DNA of 64,000 nucleotides from Tribonema minus (taxonomy: Eukaryota > Sar > Xanthophyceae > Tribonematales > Tribonemataceae): the NCBI GenBank assembly GCA_017506865.1, contig JAFCMP010000124.1:620001-684000 (forward strand), given 5' to 3'. The notes beneath the pieces are model-generated. The model had not been told where the DNA came from. It was given only the letters and a program-made list of their open reading frames with translations, and ran no database searches. This document shows positions 193-59,900 of the stretch, piece by piece (position 1 is the stretch's first letter; the number at the start of each line of letters is the position of its first letter). Both the position numbers and the translations under genes were made by a program.

Positions 193-3100
193 CTGGACTT
201 GCGCGACATCTCCCTCTCCGCATCATCGGGGTCCACGCCCTGCGCCAGTAACAAGGGTTTGAGGTGAGCGTTGAAGTGAGGGGACAACGCGCATATGAGA
301 AGTTACAAACACGGGGACGCTCGGCAAGAAGACAATGTGAACACGAACCAGTGACCGGCCATAGGTGGCCGTGTTGAGGAGCTGCGACAGCACACTATGT
401 GCGGTAAAACACATTTGTGCGAGGAAATGCGCCGTATTCAAGATGCGTCACTGACGCATTACGGCATATTTTGGCATATGGCGCACGCAGCTGGCCGCCG
501 CAGTGCTCAGCAACAGCGGCACGGCACCACAGGCACCAGCAGCAGCAGATACCTACATACCTTGATGGCAGCGACGTCGGTGGGTGCTGGCATGTAGTAC
601 ACAACAGCGTCCAGCAGGGGCTGCACACCTGTCATGGTAGCGCAGTCGCAAAGCAGGATTGGTCGCTGCGCAGACGTCCATGCGACATCACAATTGCAGA
701 TTTCGGACACATTGGCATCTGTGCGTGCGTGTGTGCTTAGGGCGTGGGATAGTGGAATGCAGAGGAGGTTGATCACTCTGAGTTTAGGCCAGGGGACATC
801 ATAATTGTCGTACTGGACACAGCGCCAGGCTTAACATTAAAACTCAAATAAGAGGGTTGACGGGCCTGAGGGGAGCGGCGCCGCACAGCAGCGCCAAGCT
901 TGACATTCAAAGCTGATAGGGGGGGGTGACGCACCCAAAGGGAGCCGGTGCCGCCAAGAACATGCTGACACACAGATTTCAGTGACTATACCCACAAGGT
1001 AATACGTGTGGAGAAGCGCCGTTAACACTAGCCCTAACCCTGCCAGTCGACGAGCTGCTGTGCGCAATATGCCTAACCCTAACCCTAGCCCTATCGCAGC
1101 TGCACACTCCAGGTGCTCTATCCTGTCAGCAAAGCGCTGTTCGTTACGCGAGATCAGGACTGCCAGGGGCACGCTTGCACAGCCAAATGCTCCAGGTACT
1201 CAATGCCAGTCAGCGAGCTGCTGTGCGCAATATGCCCTACCCCTAATCGCAACTGTGACCGTGACCTTAACCTTAACCCAGGACTGCTAGGGGCGCGCTT
1301 GAGGCGGGAGGCACAGCTGACTGCGGACTGAAACGAGTGCCACACCTCACCCTGACCCTATTCAACACACAAAGCATGAGAGCTGAATATGCACCTGAAG
1401 GTGACGATGCACATTACGAGACGTGTCGTATAAAACAGCCTTTGCTTACCCTTGTTCTTGAAGGCAGTGCCTGTCAGCACGGGAACAAAGGCACCGCCGA
1501 GGGTGCCCTTGCGGAGGCACTCACGCAGCTTCTCCGTGTCCGGGGATACACCTGAGGGGGTGGGAGGGGGGGAAGTAGATTTGTTGTTGACAAACTTGAC
1601 AACTTGCTCAGATAGGGGGGACAGAAAAAAATTGTGGAATTGACGTGGCCAAATGACTGACCCGGTATGCAGTAGAGTATGCAACAAAACTTTGTAGTAA
1701 CTTATTTGACAACAATTTGATGCAGTTGAGCCCCAGTGGTGCTGTGCTGGTATGGCGCTCAGCATTAATTGCAGCGCGCATCTATGGAGGACCCTCGTGC
1801 AGAGCGGAGCGATAATCAAGGTATGCATATAGGGCCGTCGTGCTGAGCACTGCATCAAATTTTGTTTGACAACGTATTAATGCAATTAAGGCCTAGTGGT
1901 GCTAGTGCAGCGATCAACATTGGTTGCAGCATGTATGTACACATGTAGGGCCATCTTGCTGAGCGCCGCTGATCACGGGCGCATTCGTGCCGCAAAGCAC
2001 TCTCGAGGTAGTTCATGAAGATATCGGTGCTGCAACCATCTCTCGAGGTAGTTAATGAAGGAATTGCCGTCCTGCTTCACTTTCAGTTGCTGCGCATTGC
2101 GACATAATTGACGCTCTTCGTGTGACTGGCCCTCCAGTGGTCCACGAGAGTCACGTCGTGACTGCTTTCTTCAAGCAGTGACTTCCCCTCGATGTAGTTC
2201 TTGAGAGACTCACCACCCTGCTCCACGGCAAACTTTGTGGAACTGCTGAGCAATATGATGCACCTAACACTCTTCAAGCAGTGACTCACCCTCAAGGTAG
2301 TTCATGAGGCACTCGTCGTCCTGCTCCACGGCAAGCTCCACAAGCGTCTCGTGGTACTGCTTTGCGCTGGCCTTGAGCTCATCAGGGATCGGCGCCTGCA
2401 TACATACATATACGCGTGCGCATACGTTGTTGAAAATGATAGATAGTGAATGTCATTAGTATTGCTGTGGTCATGCATGAAGCATATGTAGTGTTTTACC
2501 TGATGGAAATGATGAAGGGGTGTAAGCACAAGCATAAGCGTACTTGGATGGAGGAGCGTATGAACACACGCTTTACAAAAGGGGGCGGCATCATCCCCCT
2601 AGTCACTGCGTGCGCATATTGATGTCATAGAAAATGAATGTAGTAGTGTCTGTTATTACACTTGTTGAGCTCCATGCACAGCTTCAGTGCTGCTGAGCGA
2701 TACACACAGCAGAAAACTTGCGCCAAAGCAGACGACGCTGCTGTTGGACGTGATACGATCACATGATTTGACGCACAAAGTCTTGTCTTACTGAGCATTA
2801 GTGACAATTCGCCGAGGCAGAATGCCAAGCAAAACATCGCAGTGTTACAGAGGAGCTTGCACGCATACAAAGCCATTTACTAAGGCAGGGTTTGATGCAA
2901 TGATAGTTCACAGGTGATGCCTGGTGCATGCTGGCTAGGGCTAGGATTGGGGTTAGGGTGAGTGGCGCTATGCAGCGCAATACCATATGACGTATAGCAC
3001 TGCAACGAAAAGTCTTGAAAAACCAAATGTGTTCAGCGAAAGCCATACAATTCAACCGAGTTCTTGGTCAGCAAGGCGTCGCACGGAATGCATCCGTCTA

Positions 3101-6559: not shown

Positions 6560-7170
6560 ACCATGACACCGGCTGCCAGATGGCAGTCCAATGCTCACGA
6601 CGCGCCAAGTCAACCGAGCACAACTTGCTGCGTGCTCACTGCATGCATGGCCCAGTGTGACAGCATGCACAGGCAGCTCCGCAAGCCTCGCATGTTGCAT
6701 ATGTCTTCAGCTGCAGTCAGCCCAAGGCAGTCACCATCGAAATAGGTGGCAAGGACCGGCCATGGCAGTTCAATGTTCATAAGTCGCCAATTCAACCGAC
6801 CGCAACCTGATGCGTGCTCACTGCATACACGGCCCAATGTGACAGCATGCACTGGCAGCTCTGCAAGCCTCGCATGTTGCACATGTCTTCAGCTGCAGCC
6901 AGCCCAGGCCAGTCGCCGTTGCAAACAGTTGGCAAGTACCAGCCATGAAAATTCATGACTGATGAGTCGCCAAGTCTATCGATCGCAGTCTTCTGCGTGC
7001 TCACTGCCCTGTTTGACAGCATGCAGCTCTGCAAGCCTCAGGCTTCTATGTTGAATCGAGGCTCCAGCTTCAGTCAGCCAGGCCAGTTGCCTTTGCGAAC
7101 AGTTGGCAAGCACCACCTATGGAGGTTCAGTGCTGACGGGTCGCCAAATCAACCGACCACAATTTGCTGC
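6560..7170. repeat. Satellite-like tandem repeat, about 180 bp, nearly four units
   Basis: The anchors cgccaa..caaccga and gcgtgctcactg recur at about 6602, 6783, 6966 and 7141, a period of 175-183 bp. Each full unit also contains gacagcatgca, gcaagcctc and cagtcagcc-type blocks. Short open frames inside the array are by-products of the repeat. Confidence 0.85.
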
Positions 7171-7984
7171 ATACCTGCATGTCACCTTAATCACCAGTGC
7201 CGTGCTCCTCCTGCTCGTCGAGTAGCTTAACTTGGACTTGCCGGCAGCAGCCCATCGTCGCAACAGCTTGTGCCCAGGCATTCAGACCGTTGCATGAGAC
7301 ACGCTCCTCATGGGTACCACTTAATCCACAGCTGCATTTCGGCGTATGCTGCACACACGTGTGGTAGCTGAGCCTAGTCATGCTCAGCAGGTGTGTCGAA
7401 ATTAACTCCAGTGGTGTTGATGCTTCTCCAGCCATTACCATGGGCTTCATTCGCCGTGGTCAATACCAGCATTGCTGCCACAGTGGCTCAGCGCTGCTGA
7501 CCGTGAAGCAAGGGCTGTTGCTGCACCTCGCTCGGCATCAGTTCTCGCGTGCTGCGTTAGCCTCGCTCAGGCAGCACCACTGTGTTGGCCTCCGCGAGCT
7601 GTGCCGCACGGCTGCTCCTTCGTGTTGTGCGCGCCTACGCTTTGAACAAGTCTCACCACTTGTTACAGGCTCATTTGGCCTCCGCTGCACTGCTCTCGTT
7701 TCTGTAGCGCAGCTGTTCATGATGTGACATGAATACCGGCGATTATATCGGGTTTTCGGTGGACACACACAGAAACTCTTTTAATCCGAATAAACCCTGT
7801 TTTTGAGGCTTTATAATTACCCACAGCATCACACAAATGGTCTGCTGCAGATCTGTTGCATCATCATCATACCTAACAGTATGGTCTGTTCCATGCACCA
7901 AACAGGATGAGAAACAGGCTTCTACTTCACAAGTTATTGCGATTTTGGGTCTTTTGCACGATGTGCAAACGGAGACCTAGTGAC

Positions 7985-10807: not shown

Positions 10808-13800
10808 ATGCGGAGGAGCCTGGCGCCATCGAGAAGCCTTCCCGGCACGACCTCACGCCAGAGCTGCGATGGCACAGAGCGGGAGGAATCGGCGGTGTCT
10901 CGCAAGGTGTACAGCACCAACGCCAGGCAGCTCAGCCAGGGCACGGTGTCTGTCGTCAGGGCACCCTTTCTCAGCATCCTGACCTGCCCTGGCACCTGCA
11001 TTCAGGCCTTCAAGCCCCCGGCCGGAGCAGTCAGGACTGACAGCAGCGATGTCCTGCTGCGGCGCAAGTCCCTGGGAGTTCGCAAGAGCTTCCAGCCTCT
11101 GCAGCCCAATCGCTTCAAGACCCCTTCGAAGAGCAGCCAGGACTCTGACATCGACATCACTGGCGGCGACGCTGAGGATGAGGCGGAGCAGGAGGAGAAG
11201 GCTGCTGACCCTGATGAGCCGCCCGTGGAGCCGCTGGTGTTGTGGACCAGCGAGGAGGACAGCACACACTGCATCAGGTGAGTTTTATAATTTCATCTAC
11301 CAAAAGTTGGGGGGTGCAAATCGTGAAACAACTGGGTGAGAGGTGAAGCGCTGCCGCAGCGGCTCAACAGGCCCTGAGTCTGGTGTGCGCCTGCATTTGC
11401 TCAGCGAATTCAGCGAATTTTGCTGGGTCTGCTAGGTAGACTTGCAGCATACAGCGAGAGCGCACAGCAGCAGCAGCAGCACTGTTGGCGGAATGAGTAC
11501 TTCAGAATATGATGTTGGTGTTCCTTCTTGTGTAATAAGAAAGGCACGCAGCACTGCACAAACTGTCTGCGCAATGGGTAACACCACAGAAAAACGTAGA
11601 TTGTCACAGAGATCACAGCACGAGCCTCATGCGCGTACTTGCGAATAACTTGAGACTGCATCTCAGCAAGAGGCAAGTGTGTGCAGTCGTTTCCAACATG
11701 AGGACTACATAGGAATACGGACTGAGCACGCCACCCCCGTTGATGCCTGTCGTGTACATGAACCGCGCGCTTGTCAGGCTAGCTCTTGTTCAAGCCTCTG
11801 ATTGAAATTGCTGCGCCATGCAGTCATCTGGCATTTGCAAACTGTCCTCATTCACGATGCCATCGCTCCCGCGCAGCGTGGACATGGGCCTCTGCAAATT
11901 TCTGCGGCCGCATCAGCGGGAGGGCGTGCGCTTCATGTTTGAGTGCCTCATGGGGCTCAGGAACTTTCCCGGAAGCGGCTGCATCCTGGCGGACGACATG
12001 GGTCTCGGCAAGACGCTGCAGAGCATCGCCGTCATGTGGACGCTGTTGAAGCAGGTACGTGCGTGCCTGCGCTGCACACGACCGCAGTCGTCTCATGTTG
12101 GCAGCTTTTGCTGCAGGCTCGCACTGGCGTAGGGGGGGTTAGCATTAGGGGTATGTATGTGGCAGGGTAGGGGCAGAGCAGCACAGGGTACATGCTGTCG
12201 CTGCTGCTTATCAATCACGTGCAGGACAGCGGTGGTTGTGAGTGAGCTGAGTGGCCAGAAACTCATCACAGTAAGAGCAGCATTTTGAGGTGAGTTGCTG
12301 AAGCCTGGGACACCCCCCATAGTTCATCAAGTGTTGTTGTACTTGAAGTAGGTAAATGTGCTTGCAGTAATGTAAATGGTAACAGCAACAACAGCAGTTG
12401 AATGCGCAGGCAGCCACACTGCCATCAAAGCGTGCCTGGTCAGGTGGCACGTCTCGGTCTCCTCAATCAAGCATGAGGCAGTGCAATGGCTTGATGTGGC
12501 TGATTGCTGGCTAGGATGCAATCATACAGTACGCAATGCGATGTCTTGCCCCAGATCTGGTCTGCCCAGCCCTGTGCTTTGGCGCGTGCGCCAAGCACAC
12601 ATACCAGTTCTCTTAGCAGACGCCTGCACTGCCTGGTATATTGGGCAGGTATGCAATCATGCAGTACACGTATCTGATTACCCTCATTGGATGGTGCCAT
12701 GCCCTCTTCCCGCCCGGGCTGATGAATCGCCTCACAGTGCAGCATACGCTTTGGATGCCTGCATTCGAGCGTCAACATCGAGCGCGTGTGCCATCGCGCC
12801 GTGCGCTGATTGCGGCTTTAGCGCACTTGCAGAATCCTTCAGAAATTACACACCAAGAGTGCACCGTTTCTCTGCATGTCTCAGCACACGTGCCTTATTC
12901 CGCAGCTTCAAGTCTGCATTGATTCATGCATGCGTTGAACCCATCTTTTGTTCACGCAGGGCACTGCGCGGGGTGGGCCGCCGGTGGCGAAGCGCTGCGT
13001 GGTCGTCTGCCCAACGTCGTTGGTGAGTCACACACTGCACTTCAACATGTGAAGTTTCACGCGCTGCACACTTCAGAGCCGCACTTCAACACAACTTCAA
13101 GTACTGCAGTTGCGCCTCCACTGACAAGATGCGCCCGCAGCCTGGAAGGAAGGGTACATGCCAGCGCACTTTCCCCTTAACACGCACCGATAAGTGCTGC
13201 TGTGTCTCCCATAGGGCGTGCCATCGGCCAAATTGACTCACGGCAGTTGTACGGCAGTTGTGGTTTCTCCATCACGATGGCTCCTCACAATGACGGCATG
13301 CAGTCTGCATGTCGCCTTTGAATGGACACAAGAAGGGCAATGCACAGCGGTTACACATTTGTCGTTGAAGCAGGAGCGCTGTTGTGTACTGCGAGCGGCG
13401 CGTGCAGTGTACGCATGAACTGACTGAGCACTGCTACATCATGTGAGCACTCACACACTTCAATGGTATGTAGGCAGGTACAGGTGAGCAGCTGCTCTGT
13501 TACACGTACGCTCTCCCACATCACCATGCTGCATTACGCCTACGCTCACGCACACGTTCACGGTGTGTTAAGGTTTAGGTGACAACTTAATGGTACGCAT
13601 GTATAGACGGGAAGCTGCTTCATCACGCGCACACTCAAACGCATGCCATTTTAGGTCACACTTCGATTTTGTTGAAAGGTACCTCGAAGTATGAGGGGAA
13701 GCTGCTTCATCACGCATACACTCACGCACGCCTTCTCTGCGCGTATGCACAGGCGAGCAACTGATTACACGTTCACTCACGCACACCTTCACTGCGCGTA

Positions 13801-16800
13801 TGATTACATGAGCAAGTGATCACACGTACACTCACGCACGCCTTCATGGCGCGAGTGCGCAGGTGAGCAACTGGGAGGCGGAGCTGGACAAGTGGCTCAA
13901 GGGCGCGTGCAAGTGCGTGGCGCTTAGCGAGACGTCTCGCGATCAGGTCATCTCGGGCATCAACCTGTACCTGTCAAGCCCCATTTACAAGGTACGAAGT
14001 ATGTATGGAAACAAATCAGAACATCGTAGAGCTCTGTATACATGTAATGTGCACATATGTAGGTATACAATGCTTTCGAATCGCCACTGAGATGTCGCGC
14101 GATCAGGTCGTTTCGCGCTCCAACCTGTACCTGTCAAGCCCTATTTACAAGGTACGTACGCGTGGAGGCACGCATGAGTAGGTAGGTATAGGATGCGTTC
14201 GCATCACGAATGAGACGTCGCGCGACCAGGCCATTCTGGGCATCACCGTGTCCCTATTAACAAGGTATGTAGGGAGGTACACGTGGGTAAATATACGTAG
14301 GTACGCACACAATGCCTTTGCATCATCACTGAGATGTCGCACGACCAGGTCATTTGGGGCATCAACCTGTACCTGTCCAGCCCTATAGACAAGGTATGTA
14401 CGTACGCGTAGGTAGGCGTGCGAAGCCTGTGCATTGCTACTGAGACTTCGTGCGACCAGGTCATTTCGGGCATCATCGTGTACCTGTCAAGCTCCATTTA
14501 CAAGGTACGTATTGAGGTACACGAAGGTAGGTAGCACGTCAATGGGTACACGATGCCTTTGCATCGCCACAGAGACGTCATTCGAGCATTAACTGGTACC
14601 TGTCAAGCCCCATTTACCAGGTACCCAGGTAGATATCTGTGTGTAGGCACATGCCTTTGCATCAACAGTGAGACGTCGCGCAACCGGGTCATTTCGGGCA
14701 ACCGGGTCATTTCGGGCAACCGGGTCATTTCGGATATCAACTCCTGCCCCGCCTTATCTACAAGGTGCGTAGGCACAGGCTGCCTTCGCATCACCACTGC
14801 TACATGATTTTTTCCTTTTAGGGAGCACCAATCAGTGCTCAGCAGTTGTGCTGGAGACCATGCCATTGCTGAGCGCTGCTGACAATGGCGGCATTGAACT
14901 CACCGCGACACACCGCAGGTGCTGATAGTGAGCTACGAGACCTTCAGGATGCACGCCGCGAGATTTGGAGGCGCACACGCCAACACCAGCTGCGACCTGC
15001 TAGTCTGCGATGAGGTCAGTGCTCAACCTCTGCCATATTGAAAAATCTTAACAAAGAGCATGCGCACACCTGGGGTCGGGACTGGGCGCGCTCAGCTTCT
15101 GCTATGTTAAGGAGTATGCACACACATGGCGCTGAAACCGGGGCGTATTTGATGCGTGAGCCAGCACTGCAGTCAAGTATCACAAGTATACATGCCTTGC
15201 CAACAGGCACGCTTCACGATGGTCTGCGCTCACATTCCGGGGATATTCTGTCAGCGCGCTGCGATGATGTCAGCGCTCAACCAATGAGGTCAGCGCTTAA
15301 CTTAACCTCTGCTGCTGCGCCAAAGAGTACATCACACGCGTTCGTCGAAAATACATGTTCATGTGCTTCGAGAAGTATGTGTACGGTGAGGTGAGCGCTT
15401 CGTGTCTAGTCTGCCAACAGGTATGCTGAGTAAGGACTACGCTCAAATTCGGTGGTGTCCTTCATCGGGGACCCCAGTCCCACAGGTTGAAGCGGGTGAT
15501 GCGCCGTGACCGGGAGTGCACACGCGCTCCATAGCACATATGCGTATGACCAGACAGTCGTAGCGGCAGTCGGCGGGCAGCGCAGGGCCTAACCCTAGCT
15601 CTAACCCTAATTTTAGAGACTTGCCAACACGCAGCACTGCTCAGTCGATGACTCGTTTGTGTGACAACGCAGCGCTGCAGGCAGACGAAATGCGCAGCGG
15701 CTTTTTACTCTTGAAGTTGCGCATTGAGCACGCATGCTGCAGTCGTCGCAACGTACCCCGACCCAGCCCTAACCCTACTTCCTTACATCAGCAGCGGCTC
15801 CTCGTCACAACACTCCAAGTCTCTACGCTGAGAGTGTGTATTGCGCACAGTCATTCCGTCGCCCGTGCGCAGCGCCTCGTTGCAACACCGCACGTTCGCG
15901 CGCTCAGAGTACATTTGCGCATAGTCATTGCCGAGCTTCTTGGCTCGTCGTCATACCGCATGTACGCATTCTTAGCGTTACATGTGCGCCGATGCGCGCC
16001 GCGCCTCTTGTGACCCCAGGCGCACAGGTTGAAGAACGGCGACACAGCGACCAGCAAGGCGCTGGCGGGGTTGAAGTGCCGCCGCCGCGTCCTCCTCAGC
16101 GGCACCCCCATGCAGAATGACCTGGAGGAGTTCTACGCCATGGTGGACTTTGCGAACCCCGGCGCGCTGGGCGATCAGACCCACTTCCGCAGGTATGTAG
16201 GTAGCGCGCGCGGCTACAGGGTAGGCATGTATGATTGCGCAGAACGACCTGGAGGAGTTCTACGCCATGGCGGACTTGGCGAACCCCGGCGCGCTGGGCG
16301 ACCAGACCCACTTCCGCAGGTAGGGTATTTATGTATTCCATTTTCGCAGGTGGGGTGTTTGTGTATGTACATATACATATGACGCATGCATACATACCCT
16401 GGTAATTTATTGAACCCCGGCGCGCTGGGCGTCCAGACCCACTTCCGCAGGTAGGTGCTGTGTGGCTATAGATGTGTATGTACACATATGATGCATGCAT
16501 ACCCTGATAGTTTTGCAAACCCCGGCGCGCTCGGTGACCAGACCCACTTCCGCAGGTATGTGGGTAACGCGCGTGGCTGCAGGGTATGTATGTATGATTG
16601 TGATGCATGCAGAACGCCCTCGAGGAGTTCTATGCCATGGTGGACGTTGCGAGCCCCGGCGCGCTGGGCGAGCAGACCCACTTCCGCAGGTATGTTGGTA
16701 ACTCGCGTGGCTGCAGGGTATGTATGTATGATTTTGATGCATGCAGAACAACCTCGAGGAGGCCTATGCCATGTGGACGTTGCGAGCCCCGGCGCGCTGG

Positions 16801-19800
16801 GCGAGCAGACCCACTTCCGCAGGTATGTAGGTAGCGCGCATGATTACAGGGTATGCAAGTATACATATAATGCATGCATACCCTGATAGTTTTGCGAACT
16901 CCGTTGCGCTGGATGACCAGACCCACTCCCGCAAGTACGTAGCACGTGTGGCTACATGACGTATATGCTTGTGTACTTCAAAGCATGATGCAAGTGTACC
17001 GTGGTAGCGTTTGCAAACTCTTGCGGGCTCGGCGACCAGGCCCCTACTTCCGCAGGCAGGTAGCGTACGCATGCCGACGGGTATGCATGTATGCAGTGTT
17101 GCATGAGTGCCCTGGTGATGTTTGCAAACCGCGGCGCGCTGGGCGACCAGACCCGCTTCCGTAGGTAGGTGGGGTAACGTACATACCTGCGGGTATGTGC
17201 TCAGAGTGGTGATGCATTCACACCGTGACAACGTGTTGCATGGTTGCATGTAGGAATTAAGGTCGAAGACATCCAAATCATGCCATGTGCCATTGCGGGC
17301 CCGCGTGTTTGCTCGGGCTGTATGTAGGTGGCACCGCCGCAGCCAAAGCGGCTTTGTCGATTGAGCGCCGTGATGCCATACAAATCTCATGAGGGGCATG
17401 CGACTCACTCTGCAGCTGCAAGCGCAGCGCAGCATGCACTACTGCACTTTGCCACTGTGCAATGTGTGCTCCAGGCACCTCCTGAGCACTGCCCACCGCC
17501 ACTGGACACAATGGATATTTTGAATTCAAGGCGCATTACGTCCGTCCGACATGATGACATCCAATGAACTCACTGTGCGGTCTGAAGACGTTCACGGAGT
17601 GCGATTCGTGACACCGCTCTCACCATGCGCGACACTGAGACGCGCCAAGGAAAGCACATCCGCGGTGTCTGCAGCAGGCACTTTCTAAGCGTTTTCACAG
17701 CTCCCGCGGTGCGCAAACTTGCCATGGAAACAAACACATTTGCAGTGTCCGTGACAGGCACTTCCTCAGCGCTGGCACTTGCTGAGCACTGTCACCGCCA
17801 CATGACACGAGGGGATGCAGTTCGCAGCGCAGTTCGGGCATCGACGGACCTTCAGCCTAACCTTAACCCTACCCCCAACCCTAACCTAAACCATGGAAAC
17901 CGTCACACTCGCTTGCTTGGCGATTTACGCGACAGGCACTTCCTGAGCGCTATCACGGCCGCGCGCGAGCCGGACGCGACGGATGGCCAGCGCGCCAAGG
18001 CGCAGAAGGTGCAGAACGAGATGTCGACGCTGGTCAATGAGTTCATCCTGCGCCGCACCAACACGCTCAACGCCAAGCACCTGCCGCCGAAACTGGTGCA
18101 GGTGCGTCACTCAATGAAGTACTTGTTAAAGTATGTTCAAAACGAGATGTCAACGCTGGTCAACGAGTTCATCCCGCACCGCGCCAACACGCTCAACGCC
18201 AAGCACCTGCCGCCGAAAGTGGTCCAGGTGCATCACCCAATGAAGGTACTTGTTGAAGTATATTCGCTCGTGTAGTCCATCACCAACACGCTCAACGCCA
18301 AGCACCTGCCGCCGAAAGTGGTCCAGGTGCATCACCGAATGAAGTACTTGTTGAAGTATGTTCGCTCGTGTCCACATAGTTCATGCTGCGCCGCACCAAC
18401 ACGCTCAACGCCAAGCACCTGCCGCCGCCGAAACTAGTCCTGGTGCGTCACCCAATGAAGCACACATTTGAAGTACGTCCGCTCCTCGTCTCCCACTGCA
18501 GTGCGTGCGCTGCAGTCCGTGTCACAGACATGCAGTTTCTTTTTGCTTGCTTCGTGGCACCTGCCGCCGAAACTGGTCTAGGTGCGTCACCCAGATACTT
18601 CTTGAAGTACGTTCGCTCGTGTCCACATACTTCAGCAGGTACTGCTTGCGCTGACATGGCAGTGATGGTGCGTCCTTCGTGGCAGCAGTGCACGCGCGCC
18701 TTTGTTTGCATGCAGCGACGCACGTACGACACCAGCACAATGCTCCATAGACTTAGAGTTAGGGTCAGGGTTGAAGGTTAGGCACCTGCACTGCGACTGT
18801 GACGCATGCGTGCCGTGGGTCGCCACCAACTGCAATTGCACGTCGTTTCACACCACCGTTACACACTATTTCTGGCAACTTGTATGCATGCCTTCATGAC
18901 AAGTTGATTTGTGACAGTTTCACCATACTTCAAGTACTTGCAGTTGCGTGCATTCGATGTGCCACGCCAGTCTGTCAATGACTCTCCCCACGTGGCGCAT
19001 CCCGCACACCAGCGATCGTCCATTCAGTCAAGCGTTGCCGGCGCTCTCAGCTGCCGGGAAGACAGCCGTGACGTGTCGGCGCGCAAACTGCAAGTGCCGT
19101 ACCTCACTCACACGATCATGCAAGTCTGTTCTGCAGCTCTCTCACTGGCTGACCTGAGAACTTTCATACATACATACTGCTGGGCGTGCAGGTGGTGGCA
19201 TGCCGGCATGCAAGCTGCAAGTGTGGCCGTTCACACCACACAGTTGTGCAGTTTGTGCTTCTGGTTCACCTAAGAACTCCGCTGCATGCATACATGCGCT
19301 TGTTCTTCGATTGGCTCACCTGAGAGTTTTGTACTTGCATACATACATACTGCAGGTTGTGGCGTGCCGGCTGACCGACGTGCAGCGGCGCATCTACCAG
19401 CACCTCCTGGACAGCAAGGAGATCCGGCATATACTCAACGGAAAGCAGGTAAGCGGGACGTCTGCATGCGGTGTGGTGATGCTCATCAGAACCTGCACAG
19501 CGCTCAGAGGAGAGCAGGCGATCCGCATATACTCATTGGCAAGCAGGTGAGGTCGTCCGCATGCGATGTGGTGATGCTCATCAGAACCTGCACAGCGCTG
19601 AGCCAGAGATCCGGCATATACTCAACGGCAAGCAGACAGGTGGGACATCCGCATGCGATTTGATGATGCCCATCAGCAGTGCGCAGCGCGCAGCAAGGCG
19701 ACCAGGCCCACACCGATTGGCAAGCAGGCAGGTGGGTCGTCCGCGTGCGGTGCGGTGATGCTCAGCTGAATTCACACAGCGCTCAGCGCGTCAGTCCAAA

Positions 19801-22800
19801 CTGGTACTGTGAGAGGGGGCAGCGCTCAGGGCGCTGCAGCCGCCGCTTACTCCAGGCTGCCTTCTGTTCCGAGTACGTTCACTACAGACATAGTGCCACA
19901 TGGATGCTGAATGCGTGCCGCAGATACCGTATGTATGCGCAAGTACAGACGGCACGGCGGCACGTCCAATGCGACACCTCATATTGCTGCTGGGTGCCTT
20001 CACATGAGTCTCGTGTCCGACTCCCCGTCTCATGCCTTTACATGAGTCTCGTGTTCGCCTTCCCGTCTCATCGCAGCTGCTGAGCAGCACAACAGTTTTT
20101 TCAGTCTGACAGTTACACAACGTACCCCCCTCCCCCCCCCCCCCCCCCCCCCCACCGCAGACCAACATTCTGAGCAGCATCGGGTCCATGCAGAAGCTGT
20201 GCAACCATCCGAAGCTGCTGGAGGCGGGAGCGGCGGCTGCTGCGGGTGCGAAGCGCGGCGCAGGGGGACCATCCATGGCAGAACATCTCGCTGAGGAAGT
20301 CGCATCCATGCTGCCAGCGGAGTCGGGGCGCGGACGAAGGTGAATACCCCTGACCGGTTCAGTCACAGGGCAAGGGTAGGGTTTGGGTTTAGGGTTAGGG
20401 TTAGTTTCAGTCACTCTTGTAGCCCCTTTGCAGAGGCAGCAGAACATCTCGCTGAGGAAGTCGCGTCGATGCTGCCAGTGGAGTCGGGGGCGCGGAAGGA
20501 GGTGAATACATGAGCTGACCGATTGAATCACACGGCAAGGGGGTGAACGTTAGGGTGTCAGGGGGTGGGGGTTTGGGTTTCAGGTAAGGGTTAGGGTTAG
20601 GCTCAGTTACCCTTGTAGCCGCTCTGCAGAGGGGTACGTCATCACACGCCAGTGGAGTCGGGGCGCGGACGAGGGTCAGGGTCAGGGTTAGGGGTAGTAG
20701 TGAGGATTGCCGCAGTGGAGTGGGGCGTGGAAGGAGGTGAAAACGCCAGACCGATTCAGTCACAGGGCAAGGGTGAGGGTTTGGTTTTGAAGCCAGGGTA
20801 AGGGTTACGGTTAGGCGCACCCTTGTAGCCAGTTTTTGAAGTAACAAGGCAAGGGTGAGCGTAAGCGTCAGGGGTTGGGTGAGGGTTTGGGTAAGGGGTT
20901 AGGGTTAGGGTCAGGGTGAGGGTTAGGCGAATTCACCCTCGGAGCCACTTTGCTGAGGGCTATGTCATCACGAGAAGAGTCGTGGCAAGTGCTTTGCCTG
21001 CACATAGGGTCGAGTGGGGTGCAATGGTGCTGCTTGATGCCGTTGTTGCTGTCGGCATGTCTTGTGCTGCCATAAACGCTCCAGGCTTAAGGTTAGGGCT
21101 AGCATTAGGGTTAGGGTTGGGGTTGGGGCAGCGTGGCATTATGGCATATTCTCCGTGCCGTCTGCGAACTTCCCTTATGCCAATGTCCCATCTTGTGGCG
21201 ACGACAGTAGCCAAACTGACTGCCGGCCACACATGCAACAGCGGTCACACTGCTACTTGTTGTTTGGCACGTGAGGAAGGGTTGACACAAAGGCATGGCT
21301 TGAACTTGTCTGCCCAAAAGCACTGTGAAGCATCAAAAGCACCTATCTAAAGCACTTTCAAGCATGTTTACCTTTCCAAGTACTTTGCTCATAGGCGATT
21401 CAGCATGCACGCCTTCAGCGTCCTTTGCTATTCAAGCGTAATTGAGGTTCCTTGACAAAGCTTTGTGTTCACAATGTTTTGCGCCACGATGTTGTCCGTT
21501 CGACTGCGCTTTTGATAATGCCCACATCCATCGCCATCCTTGCGAATTGATGCAGCTCACAGAGCACGCTCGCACGCTAGCCCTAACCCTAAACCAGTCC
21601 TGTCCTTCGCTAACCCTCACCGTAATTCTCACCCTAACGCTCATCTTTCGTTCGTACAGCGTGCACCCCGAGTGGTCCGGCAAGATGGAGACGCTGTTTC
21701 GGCTCATGCAGGGCATGCGCAAGAGTGGCGATGATCGGATAGTCGTAGTCTCCAACTACACCTCTGCGCTCGACCTGATTGGGAGAATGTGCCAGGAGAA
21801 CCATTGGCCGTATTGCCGGCTCGACGGCAGGTGCGTCGCCTTACCCTAACCCTAACCCTACCGTACCCCCTAATGCTGCCCAGCCCTATTCGTGAGAGTG
21901 TGCTTGCACCTCTCGTCTAGCTGAATTTCAGCTGTTACAGCTGTAACTGTAGCTGTTGCTTGTGGTGGTGGTGGTACTTAGTGACACCAGCGGGTGGTGA
22001 TATCAGCAAGCCGTGTTGCCAGCTCATACACATCCATGGTGGAGGGCGCGCTTGCAGCGTTGTCCTGTCCACATTCGGGTCAGCATTGCTCAGCTATAGC
22101 TGTATCTATAGCTGATAGTGGCTGGCCCTAAACCTCACCCTAACCTTAACTCTTAATCGTGGGGAGGTCTCTCTCACGAGGAATTTGGTTATCGTCAGCA
22201 CTGCCATTAGAGCATACGAGTGCAGCAGGGGCTTGAAGCCAAGGTGTCTGTGCTGCCAAACACACAGGTGTGCGCTTACCGACAATCGAGCACCGTTGGT
22301 GGCGGTTACGCATCCGCTGTAACTGTCACTGCGAATGTACATGAACAGCAGAACTCATAGACTGAACACAGCACAAGCCCATATTCCTACAACACACATG
22401 TTTGTTGGGTGAAGTGACTGCAAGTGGTGACTCACCTCACGTGCCCAAGATGGCTTCACCGCTGAATCTGAGCGGTCTGCTTAATGTGTGGTGGTACCGT
22501 TGATTCGATTGATTGGCAGCTATATTGCATTGCAGGTGACATTGAACAGCCTAATACGACTCGCCACACCGTGTACTGAAGCAGGCTTGGAAGGATTTCA
22601 ATCTTGCAGCCGATGGCATGTTAGTACTTCAAGTACGAAGTTCCCATCTGACCAAGTGCCGCTGCGAATGGTGGTTTCATTTCATGTCTGAAGCCATGTT
22701 TGGCGAATGGTACGCTAAGTGAGTGTGGCGTTACGCACTGAGATCGGCCCGAGCATCATGGGAAACTTCGTTCATTTGTGGTGTGCAGAGAGTCAGCAAA

Positions 22801-25800
22801 CTGCGTTGCATATGGATGGCAAACCTGCCAGTCGTCGCATGTACATCTGAGCGCACGTGCATGCTATTTGCCCCAACCACTTTACACAGCCACGTACACG
22901 CCATGAGCGGTATGATTTTTGAGCTTTGTTAAGCAGCATCTCAATGACAATTGAGCCATGGCCTGTGTCGACAGGGCTTCTTCTAACACGATGTTGGATT
23001 GCTTTATGTGTATGGACTCTTATGTTTTATGACTGCAGCACTGGCGGGAAAAAGCGCAAATTAATGGTCGCCCAGTTCAACGACCAGAAAACAGACAACT
23101 TTGCCTTCCTGCTCTCCAGCAAGGTGTGTACTGCCACTCCCAAATCTCACCATGACGTAAGTACAATGCGCAAATACACATGTATATTCTGGTTGCAAGT
23201 CCATGGACATCCACCATCTGGGCTTTTTTGCGCCCTCAGCAACAATCAATAAAAAAACCTACAACGCGCAGAGGTCGTTACTGACCACGCTTGCGGAAAC
23301 TCAGATGGGGGGCCAGTGTGACCGCTGGCGATGAAGCATGGAGTGCTAAGTAGGGTCGCGGCTAGGGTTGGAAACGCGGTTTGTCCTGAGTGTACCCAGC
23401 GTTTGTAACAGTGATGCCGGCACTGCCTCATATGCACAGGGTTGGAGATAGGGTTAAGGCTAGGGTTGCATGCGCTCGCTGCTGACTTTCATCCGTGCGA
23501 GTGCGCAACATTGCATGTTTGCGCACAGGCGCACAGTGCTCAGTTACCATTCTGCAGCGTCCTTTGTCGGTTTCGCGCCCTAGCTCGCTCGCCATGCAGC
23601 TGCCGTCAGTGATGTGAAGGCATGCACGTATGTGTAGGAATGATGCGCTGCTGCTGTAGTAGAGCGTGCAGCGCGCAACACATACATGGGCTAGTCGGCG
23701 GCCATGCCATGTGTACTTGAAGTACTTTTGGGCGCATTGCAACTTCAACAAGGCCTGGACGGGGACACCGTGCACGCCATACTGTAACAAGCACAGTGAC
23801 ATTGTCAAGCTGCTGCTTCATAGAGCGTGCGGATCACAGCACAGTCATGACGATTCCTGCCAGTTGAGAACTCAGATTTGCAAGCTGACCAACGTGCATC
23901 TTCCGCATTACAGGCCGGCGGCTGTGGGCTCAACCTGATTGGCGGCAACCGTTTGGTACTCTTCGACCCAGATTGGAACCCGGTGCGCAAAATATAGTGC
24001 CGACGATTGATGTTATCCCGACCCACCCGCACCATACTCTGTTCAGACACGTGCAACGGGCTGTCAGCTTGCTGGAACGTCACCACGTATCAAAGTGTCA
24101 AGCGCATTTGAAGCACCGTAGCGGCAAAGCGTCGAAACACATGTATACATAATGCCTGCGTATGCATCACAACTGACCATGCAACGCGCCCTGCCGCTCG
24201 GGCGCTGTCACACTGCTGATGAGGCTTGCGATGCAGGGCAGCGTAACCCTAACCCTAACCCAAAGTTTGCGATCACAATGTTCTGCATCTGTATGCCGGG
24301 TTAAGTTGGGGCAATCCCAACCCAAAGTTTGCATTTACAATGTTCTGCATCTGTGTGTCGGGTGAAAGTTAGAGTTGGGGTTAGCCTAACGTAACCCTAA
24401 AACCAAAGGACCCAAGTGAAAATTCAATCGGGATTGCTTGATGCAGCTACCTACCCCGTATTTTGTGTGCAAAGCTGCCAAAGTCATCTTGCCCTCACCC
24501 TGCTTCCTCCGAATGTGTTTGGCCATGACAACCATGTGCAACATAGAGTGCTTGTGAATCAAGTTGTGATGGCGTGGTTTCTGTGTGTGCGTGTCGTGCT
24601 AGACTGGTGTGATTGCAATGCTATAGCACCACTATCTACGTTTTCATGTTCTCAACTGTGTGTGCGCAGCGCCCCGCCAGATTGAACTGGCGCGAGTCAC
24701 ACTAACTTTACCACTGCACAGAGCCTTCAAACATGTTTGAGTTGTTGTCATGGTGCACCTTGTGCTGAGCGCTGCTGATCCTGTTACTGTAACTGACAGG
24801 CCGTCGACAAGCAGGCCGCGGCGCGCGTGTGGCGCGACGGTCAGCGCAAGCGGTGCTACGTATACAGATTCATATCAGTGAGTGATGATATGTACTTCTA
24901 GCTGCACCTGTTGCGGGGTATAGTAGAGCCTTGACTTCAAACCTTATGTGAACTGACACCTTGCAGCTCAATTGGCTGCGCGCGCTGCTACCAGACAACG
25001 CGTTGAGGTGATTTGCGCAAATCGTCAGTTCTGATTCTGCTGCGCGCGCGCGCCCTCAGGCAGACGGGCACAATAGAGGAGGAGATCTTCCAGCGGCAGA
25101 TAAGCCAAGGGGATGTGTAAAATCTTGTGTGAACTGGCACCTTGCAGCTCCGCCCTAGGTGCACATGATCATAAGTTGAGTTGTACAAACCGTCGCCTCT
25201 CACGCTGCATGCGCACATGCCTGCGCAGCGCACACGGGCACGATAGAGGAGAAGATCTTCCAGCGGCAGCCGATCCGAGGGGATGTGCGAATAACCTTGT
25301 GTGAGCTGACACTTTGCAGCTCAGTTGGCGCGCGCTGCTACCGGACGATGCCTTGAGTTGCACGAGTCGTCACCTCACGTGCTGCACGCGCGCGCAACGC
25401 AGACGGGCACGATCGAGGAGAAGATCTTCCAGCGGCAGCTGAGCAAGGAGGGGCTGCAGAGCGTGGTGGAGGACCAGGCGGAGGTCAACAGCCTCAGCTC
25501 CAAGGACCTGCGCAACCTCTTCAAGCTGCGCGACGGCACGCCCTGCGACACGCACGACAAGCTGCGCTGCGGCCGCTGCGACATGGGTGAGGCCCGATTC
25601 GCCCGTTTGCTCGACTCCTCGAATCCTGTGCTCACTGGCAACTTTTCCAATGTATGAGTCTAATTGTGACACGCACAACAAGCTGCGCTGCGGCCGCTGC
25701 GACATGGGCGAGCGCCGTGCACCGCCGCGCCCCGTAACGGGCCCCCGTTTGCTCACTGCCCCCCAACCCCCCTGTGCTCATTGGCGACTTTGCTAGATGT

Positions 25801-36300: not shown

Positions 36301-39300
36301 CAGCTCTACTTAGCATACAAACTACCTGACTTGAGGCACTCGTTGCGTCTACTTTCAAACGTGGCTCTATCACCAACACGGTATACACTTCAAAGTAAAA
36401 CGCTGCTGTGATACATGCATCAATTTGCTTGCAGCCTGCGCTACTGCCTTGAACAGTCTGATGATAAATCTGATACGGCCAGGTTTGTTTGTTTGTTCTG
36501 CAACTTCTGCTTACCCGATATCCCGGAGTGCGGCTTGGCACAGGCTGGCGGAACGGCCAGCTAGACTGGTGCTCACAGACTGCAGCCCACACTCGCAGCA
36601 GCTCTGCGGCCAGGCTGCAAGAAAATGACGGAAGATGTTGGAAGATGCAGCGATGCATCATGCGCATGGAACTGGGGGTTGCATGACCTTGTACTTCAAC
36701 ATTTCATCTTTGGGTGAAGGTGTGCTGACAAAACTTCATGTGCGATACATGCCAAGATATACTGCTCACAGACTGCAGCCCACACTCGCAGCAGCTGTGC
36801 GGCCAGGCTGCAAACATACGACGGAGGATGATGCAGCGATGCATCATGCGCATGAAATGGGGATTGCATTACCTTGTACCTCAACACAATGAGGGCACGT
36901 GCCGGTACTGCTTGTGCAATAGAAGCACATACTTAGAACAAGATACACCTGCTACACATTCTGGCTCCACGCGCGAGGCCCCCTTGGGCTGCAGTCACAC
37001 GTCGCGCCATGTGGCGCTCTCATGACAATGCGCTGCGTAGATGCGCCTCTTGTTGTACAGGGGGCAGGGACTTCTGAGCAATGCTGCAACAAACATGTGG
37101 AGCGTCACCGTGTCTCCCTCTCTTGCAGTATCGTCACCATTTCTCTATTTGCAGTATCGTCATCTGTACATGTTTGTTGGTAGTGGCCTCAGCGTCTGTG
37201 TCGTTTCAGGACCACAAGTCGCACCACGCTCACCCTGCTGTGTGATTGCCTGTTGGTGACCGCAAGCACATGACGCTTTTGGCTGACGGAGCTGAGCCCT
37301 GATGTTGAGCGATGACACTCTGAGATCTAGGGTAAAGGGTCAGGTGTAGACTTCTGGCACTGCCACAACAGCACATACTGCACATGCTGTACTCTCCCCA
37401 TGGTCTCGCGTGAAAGCCTGGCATGCCCACATGCACTCGCACTGCATGCATCGGATGCGAAATGAGATATTTACCACTGCAAAACCGCAGTCCTGCAAGA
37501 GTCGTCAGAGTGTCCGTTTGGGCGCCATCACAGTGCACGCTTCTGTGCGATCATCACGGCTACGCGCCAGGTTTCGACGCACATCCGGCTGCATCGACTC
37601 ACGCACTTACTGCATGGGTCACCCCAGCGTATGTTCAGGCGCCATCACAGCGCATGCTTCAGCGACCACCGCAGCACGCTCCATGTTGCAGCACTGACAC
37701 AGCTACGCTCCACTTTGGCGCACATCCTGCTGCATCGGCCGGCGCACTCACTGCATGGCTCGTCACGGGGGCATGTTTAGGCGCCATCACAGTGAATCTT
37801 CAGCGCGAACGACATGTGCACTCACTGAATGCGCTCCGTCCGCGCCGTCGCCGACTGCGGACCGCCACGTGGCGCCGCCGCCGCAGCAGCCCTCGTCGTC
37901 CGCGCGCCAGCGCTCGGCGCTGTCCCCCTCCCAGCCCCCCGCGCAGCAGCGCTCGCCCCCGCTCTCCGCGCCCCCCTCCCCATGCCCCTCCCGGCAGCGG
38001 CGCTCGGCGGCCGCGCGCTGCGCTTCGCAGGGCGCCGCGCCCGGTAGCTCTCGCTCTCGGAGCCGCTCTCCTCGGAGGAAGCGGACCGGGAGGAGGCCAG
38101 CGCAGCAGCGGCGCCGCGCTTGCGCTGCGGCGGCGGCGGCAGCTCCGGACTGCGCGGAGCGGCCGCTGCTGCCGCCGCTGCTGCTGTTGCTGGTGGTGGT
38201 TGTGATGGTGGCGCCACATCGTCTCGCGCCGCTGCCAGCTGCGATTTGGCAGATGACTTCATGGCGGCGGGCGCTGGTTCGACAGGGGGCTGCTGCCTGG
38301 AAAGCTGCTGCTGGCGTGGAGGCAGCTGCGGCACCGACGACGGACGCTGCTTCTGCTGCTGCGTCAGCGGCGCATGTGCCAGCTGCTGCTGTGGCCGCTG
38401 AGCATCCGGCTGCTGCTCGTGCAGCGACTGCACGCGTCGGTGTTGCTGCTGCCGTTGCGAGTCCGCGCCGCCGCCCGCAGTGCTGCCATTCGATGCGGCC
38501 GAAGAGCGCGCATGCGCGCTGTGTCCGGCGGCGCGCGGGCCAACGCCGCGGCGCATAGCGGTGGCCGTGCCGTGCACAGTTGGCGCCGCGAACTTCAGTC
38601 CCAGCTGCCCGCCATATGACATCTGCTGCTGATGCAGCGGCTCTGCCGCTCGCCCATTTGCCCCCAGGCGTGCGGCTGCGTCGCCGAATGACTCCATGTC
38701 CTGCGCGTCGCCACAGCCGCCGCTGCCGCTGCTGCCGCCGCCTCCACCTCCACCGCTGCCGCCATCGTTGCCGCCGTCGCCAGAGCGCTCCAGCACCGCT
38801 GCGGAGGACCCCGCGTCGTTGTGCGGCGTAACGACAACGCTTGCCGCATCAGACAGTGCCGCGTCTGCCGCGCGAATAGCGTCGCGGCCGTGCGGAGCAT
38901 CACCATCTGGTGCACGCCCGCCGCCTGTCGCCGCTGCCGCCGCCGCTGCTGCCGCCGCCGCCGCCGCCGCGTCACCGCCGCCGCCTGCGTCTCCCGTGCC
39001 CGGCGGCGGCAGGCGCGCGCCCAGCCCGCAGAAGAACTCGCCGAGCTGGCAGACGAACGCGTGGAAGCGGTCGTCGAAGAGCAGGCGCGCGGCGTACGCC
39101 TGGACGGCAGGAGCGCTGAGGTCCGGCAGCGGCACGCCCATGGCGATGGCGGCGGCGCGCGCGTTGAGCGCGGGGCCCGCGACGTCGTCGATGCCGCGGA
39201 CCTGGCGTGTGTGTGACGGTCGAGGGGCTCGGGGGGGGTCGAGTTGAAGTGCATATGGTGTTGAAGTTCGGATGTCGATCGCATCTGATGTCGACGGACT

Positions 39301-44238: not shown

Positions 44239-44275
<37 letters not shown>

Positions 44276-48108: not shown

Positions 48109-48139
48109 GAGGCGAGTTGTACAACGCATCCCCCAACCT

Positions 48140-48252
48140 GTACTTTTTGTTAATTCTCGCTCAGGGCGCGAAGAAGCCCAGATGAATAGTATCTAAGCTT
48201 GCTGTACGGAATATACATGTCGAGTGACAGTCTGAAAGTGTCTCAATGACAA
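48140..48252. repeat. Dispersed repeat, copy 2 (about 115 bp)
   Basis: Close match to 34361-34480, in the same orientation; it begins directly after the end of the segmental duplication copy A. Confidence 0.8.
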
Positions 48253-56900: not shown

Positions 56901-59900
56901 GCCAGCGCGACATGTACTTGCGCGATCCGAGAGGCAGCAGCAGTGCCATGACTCGTGACTCTACCTGTGGGTAAAGGAGTCGTAGAGGCGGCGGCGCGCG
57001 CCGCGGCGGCGGCGGCAGCGGATATCGGCTGGTGGTGCGCCTTGTGCAACGCGAGCGCCTCTGCATGCGAGTTGAACTCCACAAAGCAGAAGGGCCGAAT
57101 GCGCGTGGGCTCCGTCTTGTCCATGACCGGCTCCACCCTGCGCGCGCGGGAGCGTCAGAGTTGAGGTTGAGGGGTGTGCACATGTTGAAGTTGCACGGCG
57201 TCGCGCCGCTGGCCCGGGAGTGGAAGCTGCACTTGAACCCCCTGAACTGCGCCTACTCCAACAAACTTGAAGCATGCAAACATCAGAAGAGCACTGCTGC
57301 GCACTCCCTGCTCACCGCCTCAGCTGCTTCATGGGCCTGAACTTCAAGAGCCTGAATTATGGAGAGCGCCTCGCTCGCCTTGCGTCTGAGTGCGCCTGCC
57401 GACAAAGACAAAACGCCCTTGTGCCCTGAAGTTCAACTGCTCAAACATCTGCAACACACAAAAGCACCACACCCTGCTCACTTACTCTGCTGCTTCATGA
57501 GCATAAACCCCAACATCTGAACTTCAAAAGGGCACTGCCCCACCGCCCCTCACATCTCACTGGCAGCAGGTTGATGATCACCTGCTCAACTGCAATCCTC
57601 ACTTTCAACATTGAAAGCGCTGCCGTGCGCCCCCACACCTCGCGTCTGGGCAACCAGCACGAACTTCAACTTTGTAAAACTTCAGAAAATGGGTGGCAGC
57701 GCGCTCACTCACCTCTTGGCGCCCGGCAGCTTCATGAGCATCTCCTTCACCTCGTCCGCGCTCCACTCCTGGTTGAGGCCGTTGAGGAAGAGCGTGCGGC
57801 TCTCGTCGCTCGGCAGGACCCCCAGGAAGAAGCCGCGCTTGAACTCGAAGTTCTGCATGAGGTTCGCGGCGAGGTTCGCCTGCTCGCTCGTGCGGAAGCG
57901 CACGAAGCCGTAGCCGCGGCAGCGCCGCCGGCGCTTGTCGCGCGCGATGCGCACCTGCGGGGGGGGGGGGCGTCACACGCGCATCTTGTTGAAGTTTAAA
58001 GCCAAGCACTTGAAGTACGTGCGGCGAGGCGCTTTGGAATGACTGCGCACACAGGCCAGCTGCACGGTGACGGTGCGCGATTGATTGTGCCTTGAGAATG
58101 CAAGTAGGGGGTATGTGTGTGCAGACACTGCGTTGCTGCGCGGCAGCGGCGCTGCGTGGCCTGCAACTACCAGACTCTCTATACCTTTGCCGCCGTACAA
58201 AGGCAAAGCTGTCACCGCTCATCGTCCGCCCCATAACGCCCTGTTACCCCCCCCACCCAGGTGTCTATGCATGCGTGAGTGTATTCAGGCGCGGTCGCGG
58301 GTGGCAGCAGCCTCCACAGCTTTGTCCGCAGCCGCTCGTTCCACCATTGCGCCTCCCCCTCTGCCATGCAGCGCACATCACTACTGAACATATACATGTA
58401 CTTCAAAGTACATATATTTGGGTACTTCAAGGTATGTGTATGAAAGACAGCTGTCTGAGGAGCAGGGAGAGGGTATGCATGGCGCGTACGTATGTGTAAG
58501 AGTGCGATTCGCACCCCGCCCGTGTCGCGGCACGCGCACACGCAGGCACCGCGCTGAGATACCGCAGAGCTGAGCGCTGTCACAAACTGAATGTTGAGCG
58601 CTGCCACTGACTGTGATGCTGAGCACTGCTGCAATGCCGCTGTCCCCCCCAGATGCGCGCGGCCTAGCGACGACGATGGACTGCTATGCCGCGCAGCAGG
58701 GAGTGCGACAGGGGCAGGGGTCAGTACGACTGCCATTGACACGAATGAGGACAAGAACGGTGTATCGGTCATAAGCAGTTAGCAAAGGGGGTGAGCGGCG
58801 TTCTCAGGGGGGGGGGGGGGGGCAGGGGCACCTCAGCGCCTGCCGCTGCTGTTGCAGGCGGGGGCAGCAGCGGCGGCGGCGGCAGGGGAGCTGAGGGCGC
58901 CGCTTTTCGGAGCGCGGACACAGCGACGCAGCATGCGGGCCCTCGCAGAATGCGATAACTAGGGCTGCAAGCGGGCTTGGAACGGGGCTGCGCACCTGCG
59001 CTGCACGCGCCGCGCGCAGCGGCAGCGGCGGCTGCAGCGCCCATGGAGTCAGACTGAGGCAATGGCGCTGCGCCTAGGTGCACACGTCAAGTGCGCGACA
59101 TTGTACATAGCCCTGCACACAAAGGCTGCGCGCGCGGTTTGCTGAGCCACCGCAGCAGGTGGGTCATACTTGAAGTATGCATAGAAGTATGCGCACGAGA
59201 TCGGGGCAGCGCACGCTGGTAGTCGGTAGGGGGGACGGCGGATGCGGATTCACGCTTTCATGTCCTGCGCTGGGTACATATTTGATGTGTGCGCATGCTC
59301 AACGCTTGTCACAAGCGCCCCCAGACGGTTACAACGTGGCCACGCGCTACCTACTCATGACGCGCAACAGGTCAGAGTGCCTTGGGTGCTGCTGGGGTAC
59401 GTTGGCAGTGTGACGAAGCATACACACGACGGCAATCGTACTGCGTCATGCGCTGGGAGCTAAATATGGGTACAAGAAACAGCACTGTTGGCCCCGCTGT
59501 AAAACAACTCTGCCCACACAGCAGGGGCGGCGCACGCAGCAACGCTCATCAGAGGCGCTCCCAGAGACAGTGGCAGCAGTGCTCAACGACCGCAGTCAGC
59601 GTGGCGCAAGGTGAAACTGCCACCGCACGGAAAAGAGCGGGCCGCAGCTCACCGCGCCTGCTGCTGCGGCAAAGCGATCATGCGGCAGGCCGAGAGGGTG
59701 TGTCGTGCTGCAACGGCGGCAGCGGCCGGCAGCAGCGGGGGCAGACTCATTGCCGTGTAGGCGATGTCTCCATCACCAACGTGCTGCTCACTGACCATGG
59801 GATTGGAGATGAGCTTTGCAGAGGGCGGGTAGGTATGTACCTCTGCGCTGGTCGGCCGCAGCCTGCACATCATTATTTCATTATCATTTTGAACTGAGAG

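Follow-up and report, generated by a model that had tools for sequence, protein, structure and literature searches.

Several genes in a 64,000 nt stretch of the genome of Tribonema minus (Xanthophyceae; positions 620,001 to 684,000, forward strand, of contig JAFCMP010000124.1, GenBank assembly GCA_017506865.1; the whole of this stretch is referred to here as the window) have introns that include partial copies of the edges of the exons they adjoin, each copy carrying a single splice junction. This raises the question of how such copies came to be there, and whether ordinary tandem duplication is enough to account for them. Attention had been drawn to the copies by a reading of the sequence alone (below, the sequence-only reading). 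We find that they are real, well above chance, and that they are head-to-tail tandem duplications. Plain tandem duplication combined with selection on the exon, which the sequence-only reading overlooked, gives their geometry automatically and without a special mechanism, and the unusual part that is left is the number of arrays found at junctions.

The junction set comprises 57 splice junctions (29 donors and 28 acceptors) in five genes, namely those for EF-G, RAD54, a bromodomain protein and two RRM proteins (RRM1 and RRM2), and in one neighbouring exon. Junction positions are predicted; they were fixed from the reading frame and homology and were picked after the sequence had been viewed. 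The exon chain of the EF-G gene was built via tblastn with 11 bacterial EF-G proteins. The RAD54 chain encodes 711 residues in frame, and query residues 146–709 match PDB 1z3i (E 2.8e-149). The spliced bromodomain gene includes a PF00439 domain (E 1e-14) and the chains of both RRM genes are in frame, with a PF00076 match (E 2.3e-28) in spliced RRM1, which was the one covered by the domain scan. Less certain than the remainder are the donor at 35225 in the bromodomain gene and the exon with the acceptor at 26965, whose gene membership is uncertain. Where a short form is needed, junctions are designated D (donor) or A (acceptor) followed by a number.

When flanks of 1.2 kb were searched for copies with a local score of at least 32, a downstream copy was found at 9/29 donors and an upstream copy at 9/28 acceptors (one of these, at RRM2 A4, is of low complexity and was discounted), and there were no upstream copies at donors (0/29) and no downstream copies at acceptors (0/28). 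The copies thus straddle one junction and point away from the exon, as the sequence-only reading had it. Reverse-complement controls reached the same score at 1/29 donors and 0/28 acceptors, and displaced-flank controls at 0/29 and 3/28, respectively. A laxer listing, at a score of at least 28, holds 48 copies (32 donor and 16 acceptor) at 20 of the 57 junctions; as 5.1 % of 570 displaced controls reach a score of 28, approximately 3 of these 20 junctions are expected by chance. Single copies at RRM1 D2, RRM1 A4 and RRM2 A4 were discounted as chance matches, two double counts (EF-G +289 and RAD54 A7 -161) were removed, from this tally and also from the similarity, codon, splice-score and distance measures, and two missed copies at RAD54 D4 were added by hand. 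This cleaning leaves 17 junctions with 32 donor and 13 acceptor copies between them, and the earlier estimate of roughly 50 copies was therefore about right. The same asymmetry between direct and control matches was seen across the whole window, where 6396 anchors of 40 bases gave 592 direct matches to the left and 564 to the right (score at least 32, within 1.2 kb), compared to 114 and 132 reverse-complement matches and 31 and 37 matches to displaced stretches.

Junctions with copies are found in the genes for EF-G (1/11), RAD54 (12/27) and the bromodomain protein (3/6) and in the neighbouring exon (1/1), though RAD54 D5, A6, A7 and A8 have only weak copies with scores of 28–42. No convincing copies were found at the junctions of either RRM1 (0/6) or RRM2 (0/6), nor any array at the strict level, and the copies near 57560 at RRM2 D2 have a score of 25, which is within the control range. 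Hence, of the genes that had been named as carriers, RAD54, the bromodomain gene and one EF-G exon are retained and the RRM genes (0/12 junctions) are not.

The tandem character of the copies is evident from their orientation and spacing. Among near repeat pairs (<5 kb apart) detected using blastn over the whole window, 57 are direct and 0 are inverted. Tandem Repeats Finder reports head-to-tail arrays with units of 55, 95, 126 and 134 bp at junctions and of 182 bp between genes; the head-to-tail arrangement rests on this program for the RAD54 A4, D6, D7 and D8 arrays and on self-alignment for the others. Array spacings are approximately 55–234 bp, in direct orientation. If a duplication crosses a donor and the first copy is kept in use, copies of the exon end plus the intron start will lie downstream, and if one crosses an acceptor and the last copy is kept in use, copies of the intron end plus the exon start will lie upstream. 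The one-way geometry follows from this.

To locate arrays without reference to the junctions, a blind scan (score of at least 50, lag of up to 1 kb) was used and returned 19 arrays, of which 17 are genic and two lie in the 5.3 kb interval between the EF-G and RAD54 genes, taken as intergenic. Eleven of the genic arrays were tagged by script as junction-spanning, two abut a junction (hand-assigned) and four are intron-only; the exon portion of the 13 junction arrays is 11 to 93 bases long. No exon has its two junctions within a single one of the 19 arrays. Whole-exon duplication, including mutually exclusive exons, was rejected on this basis, in agreement with the sequence-only reading, which had seen no unit with both splice sites. 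Strict arrays cover 6075 of the 25689 mapped intron bases (24 %), and the description of these introns as built from such arrays does not hold as a general statement.

An exon copy that does not decay makes junction arrays easier to detect, and the count was hence repeated with the exons and some open coding stretches masked. This left 11 junction-anchored arrays (two of them, in the bromodomain gene, assigned via their overlap with unmasked arrays) versus four intron-only arrays. If arrays were placed uniformly but kept out of exon interiors and did not take in whole exons, the junction-straddling share would be 0.16–0.26, and finding 11 of 15 masked arrays on junctions has a p value of 1.2e-5 at a share of 0.20 and of 1.7e-4 at 0.26. 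Across six score thresholds, p for the masked excess ranges from 9.2e-7 to 7.1e-4, and both lag limits give identical counts. When low-complexity anchors were left out (5485 of the 6396 were kept, here and in the shift test described below), copies were found for 28 % of 134 junction anchors, 14–21 % of intron anchors and 14 % of intergenic anchors. The placement of arrays at junctions is thus unusual when compared to uniform placement, and the concentration is unexplained.

The copies range from near-identical to barely recognisable, as had been described. At 16 junctions (the neighbouring-exon acceptor, A15, was left out), mismatches between copy and exon were found at codon positions 1, 2 and 3 in 65/483, 59/485 and 98/491 cases, respectively (uniformity p 0.0037), and the 11 columns with a base unlike that of the exon in every aligned copy (all-differing columns) are distributed 0, 3 and 8 over the same positions. 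This pattern fits non-coding decay of the copies together with mainly synonymous drift of the exon after the array was founded. Similarity to the exon drops with distance (7/2000 permutations were as extreme), and in 8 of 11 arrays (ties included) it is the nearest copy that is most exon-like. Both the distance trend and the all-differing columns, eight of them at third codon positions, fit the long-lasting process that had been proposed. The GT is intact in 25/32 donor copies and the AG in 8/11 acceptor copies (10/13 with the two A15 copies), bearing out the observation that these dinucleotides are often kept; retention is about the neutral rate, which is expected to be approximately 0.75 given 13 % divergence per site.

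Many of the retained sites resemble genuine ones. In a weight matrix built from the true sites, the median score is 7.7 for the decoy donors (n=32), 8.9 for the true donors (n=29) and -2.1 for all intronic GT (n=1610, a background that includes the decoys). The 10th percentile of the true donors is exceeded by 21/32 decoy donors versus 8.4 % of intronic GT, and 12/32 decoys equal or exceed their own true donor. For acceptors, the medians are 4.5 for decoys (n=13) and 7.9 for true sites (n=28), with 8/13 decoys above the acceptor cut versus 22 % of intronic AG. Since decoy donors score near true ones, in many of these introns the true donor cannot be chosen by strength alone and, judging from the sequence, position probably guides splicing past the decoys. 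That donor copies (32) outnumber acceptor copies (13) fits, without proving, a rule favouring the first-transcribed site. Use of the 33 copies with an intact GT or AG is predicted to bring in an in-frame stop in 28 cases, a frameshift without a stop in two and an open in-frame insert in three. A coding use of the copies was rejected because 28/33 would bring a stop, the third-position excess being ascribed to drift of the exon.

We consider it probable that the arrays reflect a general process of local tandem duplication together with selection on the exon, with an excess at junctions. Local direct tandem duplication, at the spacings given above, would act across the genome and, where the duplicated stretch crosses a junction, the exon-contiguous copy (the first donor or the last acceptor) would have to stay in use or the protein would be broken. 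The remaining copies would become extra intron, more duplication would extend the row, the extra copies would decay, and the distant copies would be the older ones. Position, i.e. the first donor transcribed and the last acceptor, would let the spliceosome ignore the decoys. In the last and weakest step, the copy held constant by selection may act as a master from which slippage or unequal exchange starts anew, so that junction arrays would be over-represented and intron-only arrays would drift apart. The head-to-tail units, their one-way direction, a decay that is non-coding-like in GT/AG retention and codon positions, the distance trend and the junction excess were all observed in the window. 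A further proposal, that exon edges are permanent masters, that introns lengthen from their ends by shedding junction copies and that the spliceosome relies on the order of transcription and not on strength, is in our view rather doubtful.

Several results weigh against this account. The likeness between copies is 0.762 in the 30 exon-derived bases versus 0.553 in the 30 intron-derived bases (69 pairs), and two neutral simulations matched this gap in 0/200 and 1/200 runs, though the simulations are poorly calibrated, with comparable pairs retained in a mean of only 4.5–7.2 of 12 arrays, a smaller number of copies than was seen in the window and, in the first model, some runs without comparable pairs. 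Longer windows (RAD54 D14 +805 left out) give 0.740 versus 0.594, with some arrays reversed. The measures disagree, and selection on the copies is not claimed; simple-sequence intron starts that mutate faster may be the source of the contrast. In the 11 all-differing columns no aligned copy has the present base of the exon, which speaks against recent re-seeding there. In a circular-shift test along gene bodies, the observed 15/56 hits were reached in 124/2000 shifts, which is only suggestive, the test being weak in that shifted junctions often fall within the arrays themselves. The unmasked count (13/17) has a p value of 0.005–0.095 if a fourfold detection advantage is assumed, and the evidence base is one window, mostly RAD54. 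The junction excess is not explained by uniform neutral placement, and a master copy is a tentative reason for it.

The other explanations to be considered are not mutually exclusive. Purely neutral duplication with uniform placement, the excess arising by chance in one RAD54-heavy window, is in keeping with the similar spacings between genes and inside introns, with the outcome of the shift test and with the lack of strict arrays in the RRM genes, but exon masking removes the detection advantage and most of the arrays still lie on junctions (11/15, with the p values given above), and we consider it unlikely. Alternatively, exon–intron borders could be mutational hot spots, owing to replication or transcription stress, chromatin steps or short repeats at intron starts. 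This would directly yield the junction excess, and several RAD54 intron starts are, by reading of the alignments, rich in GTA-type short repeats. However, no breakpoint or motif has come to light, and the length of the exon portion differs among the 13 arrays (11–93 bases). We regard hot spots as a tentative possibility that is compatible with duplication plus exon selection and would replace only its last step.

That the copies are functional, with the extra sites binding splicing factors or giving regulated alternative splicing and being kept by selection, might be suggested by the scores of the decoy donors, 21 of 32 lying above the 10th percentile of the true donors and 12 of 32 scoring at least as high as their own true donor, and by the better preservation among copies of the exon-derived part. 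However, GT and AG retention is no better than neutral, codon positions 1 and 2 are often changed, 28/33 copies would bring an in-frame stop and two more a frameshift, and the exon/intron contrast is uneven among arrays; on the sequence, function therefore appears improbable. The birth of introns via tandem duplication of exonic AGGT segments, the copies being leftovers, is a mechanism by which introns are known to arise (PMC4974935, PMC2891723). It predicts that an intron copies the start of the next exon or the end of the previous one, and in this comparison the scores of 9 of 15 junctions are lower than 24, the 95 % value of the controls; the 6/15 that reach it are all in introns with copies at the other junction, which is taken as the cause. 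Intron birth was rejected on this test and is very unlikely to be the explanation. Finally, mobile introner-like elements, which have been described in Micromonas, Aureococcus and Amoebophrya (PMC7789003), could have placed the copies, but each array copies its own exon edge, and the window has 19 dispersed repeat pairs (>3 kb apart), all of them lying outside the listed arrays. On this comparison within the window, introners were set aside and are hardly credible as the source.

Table 1. Positions of the arrays and copies in the window
Feature	Positions	Strand	Remarks
EF-G exon 3 donor	1995..2337	-	last exon base 2290; decayed downstream copies at ~2187, 2041 and 2001 (last two counted as one)
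Intergenic tandem arrays	6580-7181, 8001-8336		182-bp unit; 110/120-bp lags; size range as in junction arrays
RAD54 exon 4 acceptor array	13709..13873	+	55-bp units upstream; last intron base 13862
RAD54 exon 4 donor array	13929..14780	+	true donor after 13991; six downstream copies (+160 to +773), GT in all; two hand-added
RAD54 exon 5 donor	15259..15282	+	true donor after 15014; one weak copy 254 bp downstream; score 38
RAD54 exon 6 acceptor	15470..15492	+	true acceptor 16019; one weak copy 542 bp upstream; score 36
RAD54 exon 6 donor array	16109..17198	+	true donor after 16192; eight downstream copies
RAD54 exon 7 acceptor	17472..17799	+	true acceptor 17935; three weak upstream copies at ~17474, 17677 and 17757; scores 28-38
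RAD54 exon 7 donor array	18009..18634	+	true donor after 18101; four downstream copies; 126-bp unit
RAD54 exon 8 acceptor	19169..19207	+	true acceptor 19355; one copy 164 bp upstream; score 42
RAD54 exon 8 donor array	19409..19787	+	true donor after 19448; three downstream copies
RAD54 exon 9 donor array	20278..20971	+	true donor after 20339; three downstream copies
RAD54 exon 14 acceptor array	24939..25448	+	true acceptor 25402; two upstream copies
RAD54 exon 14 donor array	25544..26383	+	true donor after 25586; four downstream copies, last partial
Neighbouring-exon acceptor array (gene membership uncertain)	26606..27028	+	acceptor 26965; two upstream copies, ~177-bp spacing; hand-assigned, 4 intron bases matched
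Repeat beyond last mapped bromodomain donor	34918-35144		counted intron-only
Bromodomain exon acceptor 35350	35283..35510	-	one upstream copy, 37 aligned bases identical; hand-assigned, 2 intron bases matched
Bromodomain exon donor 36515	36067..36529	-	one downstream copy, 234 bp away
Bromodomain exon acceptor 36615	36570..36886	-	one upstream copy, 193 bp away
Repeat just downstream of bromodomain donor 37826	37555..37805	-	copies with decayed donor-like sites; counted intron-only in all statistics

The EF-G encoded here is plastid-like, with a presequence that we take to be of the type of algae with red-type plastids. A search of viral contigs for relatives yielded two EF-G loci (63 % identity) and no relatives of RAD54 or the RRM protein in the contigs searched, and an Rfam scan gave 0 matches at the gathering score. 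The two RRM genes (42700–47300 and 54000–61020) are Ala/Gln-rich paralogues in the same orientation that share one RRM exon with 91 % DNA identity. The RRM1 donor at 45383 is GC rather than GT (AAGAG/GCAAGT, where the slash marks the exon end), making this a GC-AG intron by reading frame. The start of RRM1 and the region upstream are covered by a direct duplication (47270–48108 and 50810–51588, 3.5 kb apart) in two pieces that are 98 and 96 % identical, with an approximately 58 base GC-rich insert between the pieces in one copy.

Other repeats are also present. The heptamer TTGAAGT/ACTTCAA occurs 63 or 64 times (depending on the count) on both strands of the whole window versus 5.8 expected, with three sites in mapped exons, 34 in mapped introns, six intergenic and 21 outside the mapped categories; seven of the sites form a palindrome, e.g. 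TACTTGAAGTA. Short runs of telomere-like TTAGGG lie in introns of several genes (e.g. 21841–21862 and 24241–24261), and this hexamer is found 37 times versus 8.2 expected, 32 times in mapped introns and 0 times in mapped exons. A dispersed repeat of approximately 125 bases, the size of a short interspersed element, is present at 34353–34481 and 48131–48253 (86 % identical), with an inverse piece at 23215–23255. Two adjoining open frames at 62041–63231 include a zinc-knuckle-like stretch (CPKCHKPGDTGAHLRRC) and have no Pfam match; our guess is that they are perhaps a retroelement remnant.

Human introns derived from tandem arrays were reportedly described by Zhuo et al. in 2007, going by the title alone. 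Though the sequence-only reading held that published cases concern only exonic AGGT sites, intron gain by a tandem duplication that crosses an intron–exon boundary has been published for the potato RdRp gene (PMC4974935). As in the arrays described here, that duplication holds an intron end plus the start of the downstream exon and so straddles an acceptor. However, the potato case is a single event in one gene that led to a new intron through an activated cryptic donor, whereas here both kinds of junction are copied, in rows of up to eight, and there is no sign of a new intron. Duplication of proto-splice sites has been described in Drosophila (PMC2891723), and the Rogers model and the multi-copy cases in fission yeast, as cited in PMC4974935, likewise involve exonic AGGT or proto-splice sites. 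Intron gain of this type shares with the present arrays a local tandem duplication that makes extra splice sites and premature stops in the intronic stretch, but its source is internal to an exon and its product is a new intron, whereas the present arrays copy junctions that already exist and make the intron longer. The dual-specific splice sites of the polyubiquitin gene UBC (PMC10809524) also combine tandem repeats with competing splice sites, but those repeats are coding and the sites are used, whereas here the repeats are intronic and decaying and the decoy sites are predicted from the sequence. Introner elements (PMC7789003) resemble the arrays in being repeats that touch splice junctions in protists; they form dispersed families with inverted repeats and 3–5 nt direct repeats at their boundaries, in contrast to copies of a local exon edge.

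Among the titles and abstract openings available, no report was found of multi-copy arrays recurring at both the donors and the acceptors of existing introns, which is weak evidence as subscription papers are sparsely covered, and three passages of the Phaeocystis globosa genome paper (PMC11347835) make no mention of such junction arrays. If the pattern is true genome-wide, the copying of their own splice junctions is a way in which introns can lengthen, and the rows of up to eight graded decoys beside one exon would constitute a natural series for weighing strength, position and decay in the choice of splice site.

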